Of a stretch of DNA of 34,177 nucleotides, positions 16,478 through 18,888 are shown in pieces. Numbering within the stretch: position 1 is the first letter of the stretch; the number at the start of each line of letters is the position of its first letter. The stretch spans positions 1-34,177 of the forward strand of contig SKYU01000083.1 of assembly GCA_007127715.1 (NCBI GenBank), written 5' to 3'. The notes under the pieces are model-generated. The model saw only the letters and a program-made list of their open reading frames with translations, was not told where the DNA came from and did no database searches. The position numbers and the translations under genes are program-made. This DNA comes from Gammaproteobacteria bacterium. Lineage in GTDB: Bacteria; Pseudomonadota; Gammaproteobacteria; Steroidobacterales; PWYM01.

Positions 16478-16541
16478 GATTGTGCATTGCAGCGTTGACC
16501 GCAACACTGGCCTGAGTCGGGGAAACCGCAGACTCAGGAGG
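16470..16541 (+). promoter_or_regulatory. Leader with two competing hairpins over the octaheme cytochrome ribosome binding site
   Basis: Stem A pairs GTTTCCCCGA (16470-16479) with TCGGGGAAAC (16517-16526), a perfect 10-base match. Stem B pairs CCTGAGTC (16511-16518) with GACTCAGG (16531-16538), a perfect 8-base match around 12 bases. The stems share bases 16517-16518 and interleave, so they should largely exclude each other. Stem B buries the first half of AGGAGG (16536-16541), the ribosome binding site of the next gene; stem A would leave it free. If the arms are single-stranded in the RNA this resembles a translational on/off switch. Alternatively stem A arms could be a DNA operator pair. 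No known riboswitch was recognised. Confidence 0.45.
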
Positions 16542-16549
16542 ACATCTTG

Positions 16550-18229
16550 GTGGCCAAGCCCTTGAGGACGATCGTCTTGACGGTCCTGCTCGCGGCGTGG
16601 GCCCTGCACGCCACAGCCGAGCTCCCTGCTGCTGATACCGAAAACCGTACCGGCGCGGCCGTACGCAGCACCACCACGGCCGACCACAGCAAGTTCGAGC
16701 AGCTCCAGGGGCCCTTCAGCTCCGGTCCGGAGGTGACCGAGGCCTGCCTGGGGTGCCACACCGAGGCGGCCACCCAGGTGCACGGCAGTGTCCACTGGAC
16801 CTGGCGATACGAGCATCCGACCACCGGTCAGACGCTGGGCAAACGCCACGCACTGAACAACCTCTGTCTTGGCATCGTCGGCAGCTACGAGCGCTGTTCC
16901 AGCTGCCACATCGGCTACGGCTGGGAAGACGAACACTTCGATTTCAGTGCCCAGTACAAGGTCGACTGCCTGGTGTGTCACGACCGCACCGGCACCTATG
17001 AGAAGTTCCCGACCGGCGCCGGTCACCCGGCCTACGAAGACACGATGTTCCGCGGACGGCTGTTCGAGGCGGTGGATCTCGCGCATGTGGCACAGAACGT
17101 GGGCCAGACCAGTCGCGCCACCTGCGGCAGCTGTCACTTTCACAGCGGCGGTGGCGATGCCGTGAAACATGGCGACCTCGACAGCAGCCTGCTCGCACCC
17201 TCGCAGGTCGTCGACGTGCACATGTCGCCCGAGGGACTCGACTTCAACTGTTCCACCTGCCACGAATTCTCCGGTCACGACCAGGCCGGCAGCCGGTACC
17301 TGGTCACCGCGGCACCGCAGCACGGCATTGCCGTACCCGGGCGTGAGAGCGATCGCCCGGCCTGCCAGTCCTGTCATGGCGACACGCCCCATGCGCGCAG
17401 CATCCATGACAAGCTGAACCAGCACGCGGAGTTCATCGCCTGCCAGACCTGCCACGTGCCCGAGATCGCGCGCGGCGGACTTGCGACCAAGACCCTCTGG
17501 GACTGGTCGACGGCCGGGCGTCGGAGCGAGGAGGGCATGCCTGTGGTCGAGCGCGACGCCGAAGGCCTTGTCCTCTACGACGGCATGAAGGGCGATTTCG
17601 CATGGCGCGAGAACTATCCGCCCGTCTACCGGTGGTTCGACGGCACCATGCGCTACACCGAACTCGGCGAGACCATCGATCCGTCCCGTCCCGTGGACAT
17701 CAACCGCCCCGAGGGCGAGGCACCGCGCAATGGCACGCGCAGCAACGGTGCGCGCATCTGGCCGTTCAAGGTGCTGGAGGGCCGTCAACCCTATGATGAT
17801 GTCCATCAACACCTGGTGGTACCGAGGCTCTTCGGCCGCGACGAGACCGCCTACTGGCGGGGGTACGACTGGACGCGGGCGATCGAGGCCGGAATGGCCG
17901 AGGCGCAGCGGACCGGGCAGACCGAGGCCGGATTCAGTGGCAGCCATGGGTTTGTGGAGACCCGGATGTACTGGCCGGTGACGCACATGGTGGCCCCGGC
18001 GGAGATGGCCCTCTCCTGCGAGGCCTGCCACAGCGCCGGTGGACGCCTCGAGGGCCTCGAGGGTGTCTACATCCCGGGCCGCGATCGCCATCCGCTGATC
18101 GAGGGCCTGGGCTGGGCGGCGGTGATGCTGACACTCGTGGGTGTCGTCGGCCACGGCCTGACCCGTGCCGTGATGGCACAGCGTCGGCGGCGCCTGCGCC
18201 TGGGTGACGATGCGGGAGACGCGTCATGA
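16550..18229 (+). CDS. Octaheme c-type cytochrome, tetrathionate-reductase (OTR) family, membrane-anchored
   Basis: This is an exported multiheme cytochrome with eight CXXCH motifs: CLGCH, CSSCH, CLVCH, CGSCH, CSTCH, CQSCH, CQTCH and CEACH, at residues ~67, 116, 140, 192, 234, 272, 298 and 490. A Sec signal peptide (~1-23, cleavage after HATA) directs it to the periplasm. The third motif is followed by DRTGTYEKFPTGAG; in Shewanella OTR a lysine after the matching motif ligates the active-site heme. OTR reduces tetrathionate, nitrite and hydroxylamine in vitro; its physiological substrate is uncertain. Unlike soluble OTR, this protein ends in a membrane helix (~519-543) and a basic tail. GTG 16550 is 8 bases after AGGAGG; TTG 16547 is an alternative. 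It overlaps the cytochrome b gene by four bases. Confidence 0.88.
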   Translation: MAKPLRTIVLTVLLAAWALHATAELPAADTENRTGAAVRSTTTADHSKFEQLQGPFSSGPEVTEACLGCHTEAATQVHGSVHWTWRYEHPTTGQTLGKRHALNNLCLGIVGSYERCSSCHIGYGWEDEHFDFSAQYKVDCLVCHDRTGTYEKFPTGAGHPAYEDTMFRGRLFEAVDLAHVAQNVGQTSRATCGSCHFHSGGGDAVKHGDLDSSLLAPSQVVDVHMSPEGLDFNCSTCHEFSGHDQAGSRYLVTAAPQHGIAVPGRESDRPACQSCHGDTPHARSIHDKLNQHAEFIACQTCHVPEIARGGLATKTLWDWSTAGRRSEEGMPVVERDAEGLVLYDGMKGDFAWRENYPPVYRWFDGTMRYTELGETIDPSRPVDINRPEGEAPRNGTRSNGARIWPFKVLEGRQPYDDVHQHLVVPRLFGRDETAYWRGYDWTRAIEAGMAEAQRTGQTEAGFSGSHGFVETRMYWPVTHMVAPAEMALSCEACHSAGGRLEGLEGVYIPGRDRHPLIEGLGWAAVMLTLVGVVGHGLTRAVMAQRRRRLRLGDDAGDAS

Positions 18230-18888
18230 GTCGCGAGCTGATCTTCACCCGCTTCGAGCGGTTCTGGCACTGGACCCAGGCTGTGCTGATTTTCGGCCTG
18301 CTGTTCAGCGGGTTCGCGCTGCATGGCACGCACCAGTGGATCGGCTATGACACTGCGCTGCGGGCGCACATCGTGCTCGCCCTGGGACTCATCGCCCTTT
18401 GGGCGTTCGCGATTTTCTGGCATCTCACCACTGGTGAATGGCGGCAATACGTGCCCACCGGCCGGGGGCTGCCCGCCGTGGCGCTGTATTACGCCTATGG
18501 CATCTTCTCGGGCGAGACCAAGCCCTTCGTCAGTACGCCCGCCGCCAAGCACAACCCGCTCCAGCGGATAGCCTATTTCGGGTTCAAGGTACTGCTCGCG
18601 CCGGCGTTGTGGATCTCGGGCCTGCTGCTGCTGTTCGCCGCCGCCTGGCGCTCCACCGCCCTCGGTGCCGTGCTGCCGCTGGCGTGGGTCGCCTATGTGC
18701 ACGTGGCTGCGGCGTTCGGTCTGCTGGTGTTCCTGATCGGCCATGTCTACATGGCGGCCACCACCGGCAAACCATGGTATGCCTATCTGAAGTCCATGGT
18801 CACGGGCTACCAGGAGTCCGACCAGGCACCGCCCGGCAGCGAGCGTGAGGTCTATACGCCGCAGGTCGAGCGGGGCTCGAAGTCCTGA
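18226..18888 (+). CDS. Cytochrome b subunit (FdnI/b561-like) partner of the octaheme cytochrome
   Basis: This 220-residue inner-membrane protein has four to five hydrophobic helices of the formate-dehydrogenase-gamma / Ni-Fe-hydrogenase cytochrome b type. Candidate heme ligands are H15 (RFWHW), H48 or H66, and the pair H159 and H173, spaced 14 residues as in FdnI. It probably holds two b hemes and exchanges electrons with the quinone pool. ATG 18226 overlaps the octaheme stop (ATGA), so the two are almost certainly made together, giving quinol to cytochrome b to periplasmic octaheme transfer. The hydrophilic C-terminus is encoded in a 37-base tail-to-tail overlap with tatD. Confidence 0.85.
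   Translation: MSRELIFTRFERFWHWTQAVLIFGLLFSGFALHGTHQWIGYDTALRAHIVLALGLIALWAFAIFWHLTTGEWRQYVPTGRGLPAVALYYAYGIFSGETKPFVSTPAAKHNPLQRIAYFGFKVLLAPALWISGLLLLFAAAWRSTALGAVLPLAWVAYVHVAAAFGLLVFLIGHVYMAATTGKPWYAYLKSMVTGYQESDQAPPGSEREVYTPQVERGSKS

Follow-up and report, generated by a model that had tools for sequence, protein, structure and literature searches.

The octaheme cytochrome gene and the overlapping cytochrome b gene carried by the window (the whole 34,177-nt stretch of DNA that was analyzed, contig SKYU01000083.1 of GCA_007127715.1, forward strand, to which all coordinates refer) most likely encode a quinone-linked tetrathionate/nitrite reductase, whose substrate and direction in this organism are putative. 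Members of the OTR family are cited as tetrathionate/nitrite reductases with an unsettled physiological role and have been studied mainly as one soluble protein from Shewanella. Our survey shows that the membrane-anchored form paired with a cytochrome b is the usual one among OTR proteins, the exception being the soluble enzyme of Shewanella, whose structure is solved.

Eleven CXXCH motifs occur in the six frames of the window, and eight of them lie within the octaheme open reading frame (codon starts at 16745, 16895, 16967, 17123, 17249, 17363, 17441, and 18017), so chance origin is not an issue. The GTG start is plausible, given the AGGAGG upstream and the signal peptide that follows, with TTG at 16547 as the alternative (Table 1). 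The product scored 596.6 bits against TIGR04315 (tetrathionate reductase family octaheme cytochrome; cut-off, 375) over positions 1 to 440 of the 440-position profile, and it matched PF11783 in Pfam. Its sole PDB relative by sequence was the Shewanella OTR, 1SP3 (phmmer, 1.9e-108), which was also the only significant match in a fold search with the AlphaFold model (pLDDT 87.9; E 5.6e-46; TM-score 0.90 on the target). Meanwhile, none of the eight motifs is the CXXCK looked for as a sign of NrfA, the pentaheme nitrite reductase, and profile searches returned no NrfA match. Sequence and model together place the octaheme fully within the OTR family, with a predicted OTR fold.

The catalytic heme of the Shewanella OTR is heme II (PMC4484225), which corresponds to the second CXXCH of the window protein. 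The equivalent of Lys153 in 1SP3 is Lys206, ten residues past the His of the fourth motif (CGSCH-FHSGGGDAVK), which is predicted by alignment to be the axial ligand of heme 2; the AlphaFold model itself holds no hemes. When its invariance was checked, Lys206 was present in 83/83 members of our first sequence set and 53/53 sequences of alignment A1, and the equivalent of Cys64 in 1SP3 was likewise invariant in all 83 of the first set. The preliminary description had pointed to a Lys shortly after the third motif. Such a residue exists (Lys152) and is likewise well conserved, but it is separate from the Lys153 equivalent, and the earlier reading probably had the wrong Lys in mind. Non-motif His residues are conserved at eight positions, each in 52 or 53 of the 53 sequences of the full alignment, and would thus provide enough distal ligands for seven bis-His hemes. 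A count of exactly seven distal His ligands, made in the region alignable to 1SP3, was dropped because the full alignment contains an eighth, His46.

Beyond the last heme, the octaheme ends in a hydrophobic segment (Kyte-Doolittle maximum of 1.86 in a 19-residue window) that AlphaFold models as part of an unbroken helix (pLDDT of about 85 to 97 for the greater part of it); a basic tail comes after the helix. Bearing on whether this anchor helix is genuine, two of its residues, His535 and Arg539, are invariant in helix-bearing members of the family (69/69). A G-x-x-x pattern ahead of His535 is similar to that at His275 of FdnH, a residue that presumably borders the menaquinone site, close to the inner heme, in formate dehydrogenase N.

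The octaheme gene and the gene downstream of it have a 4-nt overlap, between the stop of the former and the ATG of the latter. The product of the downstream gene belongs to PF01292 (80.8 bits; gathering score, 30.1), and its model (pLDDT 90.4) found chain C of 1KQF, FdnI, as first fold match (E 9.2e-4; TM-score 0.63). A PDB search with the single sequence gave no match, and a profile search recovered HyaC, weakly. The closest NCBIfam models were those for the cytochrome b subunits of PhsC, hydrogenase, and formate dehydrogenase, all below cut-off; the best, NF011582/PRK15006 (PhsC), gave 94.8 bits against an equivalog cut-off of 204, and TIGR01583 (formate dehydrogenase gamma subunit) gave 29.8 against 115.85. 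The four heme-ligand His of FdnI and its Asn110 are all represented and were invariant among 77 homologues, nearly all of which adjoin OTR genes. Asn110 of FdnI presumably belongs to the same menaquinone site as His275 of FdnH, and its equivalent here, together with the anchor-helix His, suggests that the cytochrome b is quinone reactive, a putative assignment. Compared with E. coli formate dehydrogenase N, the window pair thus has the same FdnI fold, the same four His and Asn110, and a counterpart of the FdnH C-terminal helix with its His275; the difference lies in the partner, which is an iron-sulfur protein for FdnI and an octaheme cytochrome for the window cytochrome b. The main elements of the preliminary description, namely, an OTR-type protein with eight CXXCH motifs and a C-terminal membrane helix, encoded by a gene overlapping that of a di-heme FdnI-like cytochrome b, are all borne out by these searches.

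Table 1. Features of the octaheme-cytochrome b pair in the window and loci of related arrangements in other genomes
Feature	Position	Strand	Remarks
Likely ribosome-binding site, AGGAGG	16536..16541	+	8 nt before GTG 16550; sequence reading
Octaheme c-type cytochrome gene (OTR family)	16550..18229	+	559 aa; stop TGA 18227-18229
N-terminal signal peptide (predicted)	16550..16621	+	About residues 1-24, ATA/EL; hydrophobic helix 4-20; sequence and model
Cys106, equivalent of Cys64 of 1SP3	16865..16867	+	Just before second CXXCH; alignment; family-invariant
Second CXXCH (CSSCH), heme 2	16895..16909	+	Catalytic heme in Shewanella OTR; sequence; PMC4484225
Fourth CXXCH (CGSCH)	17123..17137	+	Ten residues before catalytic Lys; sequence
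Lys206, equivalent of Lys153 of 1SP3	17165..17167	+	Predicted heme 2 axial ligand; alignment
C-terminal transmembrane helix of octaheme	18107..18178	+	Residues 520-543; model helix 515-556
His535 and Arg539 in anchor helix	18152..18166	+	Both invariant among helix-bearing OTRs, 69/69
Cytochrome b subunit gene (PF01292, FdnI-like)	18226..18888	+	220 aa; PF01292 1.4e-22
His15, equivalent of FdnI His18 (heme b ligand)	18268..18270	+	Invariant, 77/77
His48, equivalent of FdnI His57	18367..18369	+	Invariant, 77/77
Asn110, equivalent of FdnI Asn110	18553..18555	+	Invariant, 77/77
His159, equivalent of FdnI His155	18700..18702	+	Invariant, 77/77
His173, equivalent of FdnI His169	18742..18744	+	Invariant, 77/77
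Fusion ORFs in other genomes	L150:1842-4601; L152:2970-5834; L164:6676-9108	-; +; -	L164 5' truncated
Loci with upstream DUF302-like gene	L014, L100, L101, L106, L108, L110, L121		
Loci with receiver-domain cytochrome b	L145/L090, L146/L095, L147/L093, L148, L150, L152-L159, L161-L164		

We asked how regularly the two genes occur together among TIGR04315 matches in relatives of the window's organism, a class sample, a phylum sample, and species genomes. A first set of 88 ORFs with at least six CXXCH motifs was scored for a helix threshold and for a cytochrome b neighbor. The helix was present in 74 of these, and every one of the 74 had a cytochrome b gene 3' on the same strand, at a gap of -8 to +86 nt. 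Among the 14 ORFs below the helix threshold, that at L014 is broken by a contig end, and the cytochrome b matches near that at L019 (Chloroflexota) are weak. Full-length helix-less loci, comprising Shewanella-like members and a divergent group, had no cytochrome b in 11 cases out of 11. The remaining one of the 14, L043:1378-2991 (minus strand), has an apparent frameshift within its anchor helix but keeps an intact cytochrome b; the frameshift is either a sequencing error or a recent loss. A second set added 17 distinct helix-bearing loci, 16 of them with a cytochrome b. The one without is L160:8325-9980 (minus strand), an extra helix-bearing OTR paralogue whose next gene is sugar-phosphate-isomerase-like. 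After duplicates were removed, 88 distinct helix-bearing loci (71 plus 17) were left, with a cytochrome b directly downstream or fused in 87.

Three genomes carry a single ORF that runs from octaheme through helix and cytochrome b to a receiver domain, with Pfam and TIGR04315 matches all over cut-off. The PhsC profile (PRK15006) has an additional segment at its N terminus, and in these natural fusions its alignment extends without a break from the octaheme helix to the cytochrome b. Similarly, when the tail of the window octaheme was joined to its cytochrome b, the start of the PRK15006 match moved from position 57 to 19 and the score rose from 94.8 to 100.4 bits (+5.6). The basic tail and the fusions are consistent with a cytoplasmic location of both the octaheme C terminus and the cytochrome b N terminus. 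Furthermore, pairwise identities of octahemes and of cytochromes b were correlated (r = 0.81 over 65 loci), a value to which shared genome ancestry contributes. Altogether, the conserved neighborhood, which the preliminary description had left as a point on which its reading could fail, and the three natural fusions support its view of the pair as a two-subunit quinone-linked enzyme.

Besides cytochrome b, the only recurrent neighbors were a DUF302 gene upstream (seven loci) and genes of local synteny. The DUF302-like gene, confirmed as PF03625 in L100, is co-oriented with the OTR gene and lies about 1.1 kb upstream. GlnK/AmtB-like genes, so named from sequence, lie 3 to 5 kb from the OTR gene in L004, L005, L006, L113, and L114, a proximity that may be plain synteny in Ectothiorhodospira and its relatives. 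Within the phylum, one group of genomes has cytochrome b subunits with a C-terminal response-regulator receiver domain (PF00072 by hmmscan in eight), most copies of which keep the phospho-acceptor Asp; in L152, a hybrid histidine kinase gene lies just downstream. A receiver domain on a quinone-linked respiratory subunit is unusual. Directly upstream of the OTR pair in L157 (2319-5884, plus strand), a gene for an HAO-like multiheme cytochrome (PF13447) is followed by one ORF in which a cytochrome with nine CXXCH motifs is fused to a cytochrome b, and this locus thus holds a second multiheme-cytochrome b arrangement. Divergent octahemes from the window's own order (L026-L032) score just above the TIGR04315 cut-off, have neither helix nor cytochrome b, and carry altered residues at the conserved equivalents of H226 and M401.

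In a tree of the family, the window octaheme is placed beside Ectothiorhodospira and Halorhodospira (100/100). The soluble sequences, six in number, fall in a single clade (99/96) that groups with helix-bearing sequences at moderate support (94/92 and 80/61), and the divergent helix-less group is distant, in a tree rooted by midpoint only. This topology fits a loss of helix and partner on the way to the Shewanella OTR, although it is not proof of it. A broader reading, which we offer tentatively and hold to be possible more than probable, is that OTR enzymes in general carry the helix and are coupled to a cytochrome b, with the Shewanella form derived, that His535 and Arg539 of the helix complete the quinone pocket much as the FdnH helix does, and that the receiver fusions combine respiratory and signaling roles.

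The window octaheme shares with the Shewanella oneidensis OTR (1SP3) its fold, eight CXXCH motifs, equivalents of Lys153 and Cys64, the set of non-motif His, and TIGR04315 membership. The Shewanella enzyme differs in being soluble and ending soon after the last heme, and, unlike the window gene, the Shewanella-like genes surveyed have no cytochrome b neighbor. The Shewanella OTR shows reductase activity with nitrite, hydroxylamine, and tetrathionate, and it has an interaction with STC, itself fed by CymA (PMC4484225). The paired arrangement is already described (PMC4911364; PMC6449678). For TDIS_1882/TDIS_1883 of Thermosulfurimonas dismutans, an octaheme linked to the membrane by the adjacent cytochrome b was proposed in 2016; we liken that pair to ours by description only, and the annotation given there, as far as it is available to us, reports no helix signature, fusion, or survey (PMC4911364). 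BOGUAY_2386 of a member of the Beggiatoaceae (2019) is an octaheme of the OTR family with helices predicted at both its N and C termini and a cytochrome b gene downstream, and it reduces nitrite and tetrathionate in vitro; its authors read the cytochrome b, here likened by its description, as one of several downstream sulfur-reduction genes (PMC6449678). PhsC resembles the window cytochrome b as its best NCBIfam profile and in its N-terminal segment, the counterpart of the octaheme helix in the fusions, but the score is below cut-off and the window locus has no molybdoenzyme partner. What we add is the near-universal coupling in helix-bearing members, the natural fusions, and the invariant His and Arg of the anchor helix.

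The genes flanking the window pair are housekeeping genes, and the pair stands alone. Upstream are an aspartate-kinase-like ORF (named from sequence) and threonine synthase, followed by a NERD-domain ORF; downstream are a TatD-like ORF on the other strand (also so named), a YgjP-like peptidase, a GDSL hydrolase, and aconitase. Genes of sulfur or nitrogen metabolism are absent from the immediate surroundings of the pair in the window. Among 369 sampled genomes of the class Gammaproteobacteria, with kinship ignored, dsrA (counted over cut-off) was found in 20 of 28 OTR carriers and 91 of 341 others (Fisher p = 3e-6), and soxB in 21 of 28 and 126 of 341, respectively (p = 2e-4); two more carriers have a fragmentary dsrA. 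This co-occurrence, phylogeny ignored, favors sulfur chemistry for the carriers. However, neither dsrA nor soxB was found in the window's genome or its four congeners, so the argument does not directly reach this organism. The window's genome (G000) encodes a heme-copper oxidase, and two records of its genus are environmental MAGs (T3Sed10 and DLM2).

We propose that the pair is probably one inner-membrane quinone-linked enzyme whose main activity is the reduction of an acceptor in the periplasm, foremost tetrathionate but possibly also nitrite and hydroxylamine. From the gene pair, the conserved ligands, the helix signature, and the fusions observed in other genomes, we infer the complex, its quinone site, its direction, and its substrate. 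The octaheme would be exported, loaded with eight c hemes, and kept at the periplasmic face by its C-terminal helix, which would pack on the four-helix, two-heme FdnI-type cytochrome b. A quinone site is expected near the inner b heme, formed in part by the cytochrome b residue Asn110 and probably also by the anchor-helix residue His535. Electrons would pass between the quinone pool, the two b hemes, the c-heme chain, and heme 2 with its Lys206 ligand, the presumed site of substrate turnover. Such a pair would do straight from quinol what the soluble Shewanella OTR does via CymA and STC, although the published in vitro activities were obtained with artificial electron donors. For tetrathionate as substrate, an otr transcript of marine Acidobacteriota is up 36-fold with tetrathionate (PMC8528874).

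If the quinone site lies near the cytoplasmic face, as in the FdnI type, periplasmic reduction would spend membrane potential and oxidation would build it, a consideration that would fit the oxidative direction better. The same complex would then oxidize a reduced sulfur (or nitrogen) compound at the octaheme, reduce quinone near the cytoplasmic face, and build potential. An FdnI-like cytochrome b with Asn110 and four His, combined with an anchor-helix His like His275 of FdnH, is the layout of a quinone-reducing half-loop; anoxygenic phototrophs of the Ectothiorhodospiraceae are among the carriers, and the association with dsrA and soxB points the same way. Nevertheless, we consider oxidation unlikely. 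The known activities of the OTR family are reductions, no oxidase activity of an OTR was found in the literature cited, and at +198 mV (cited in PMC8528874) the thiosulfate/tetrathionate couple has too high a potential for ubiquinone to be reduced against the membrane potential. Judged from established potentials, reduction should be comfortable from menaquinol and marginal from ubiquinol, and oxidation with ubiquinone is unlikely; the potentials thus make reduction the better guess, at modest odds.

It seems equally improbable that the pair is primarily a nitrite/hydroxylamine reductase, ammonium forming or detoxifying, instead of a sulfur enzyme. Nitrite reduction in vitro is known for both the Shewanella OTR and BOGUAY_2386, and the AmtB/GlnK-like genes lie near the pair in several close relatives. 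However, nitrogen genes are not recurrent beside the pair, and narG showed no association with OTR in the class sample (5/28 carriers and 57/341 others, counting narG and leaving Nap out). In the window's own genome, narG was not found, and the only PF00384 (molybdopterin-family) protein is NuoG-like, with no NarG or NapA seen. A very small chance attaches to an octaheme that works alone, with the helix as a mere anchor and the cytochrome b serving other partners. Helix-bearing BOGUAY_2386 was active when partially purified without cytochrome b (PMC6449678), and the L160 paralogue has no such neighbor, but the near-perfect pairing, the correlated divergence, and the single-chain fusions argue against this arrangement.

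The anchor-helix signature lets annotation separate the membrane and soluble forms of OTR, and the natural single-chain fusions offer a ready route to express and assay the intact complex. If most OTR members are quinone-coupled membrane enzymes, as we propose for the window pair, the Shewanella protein would be a poor guide to the energy gain of the family.
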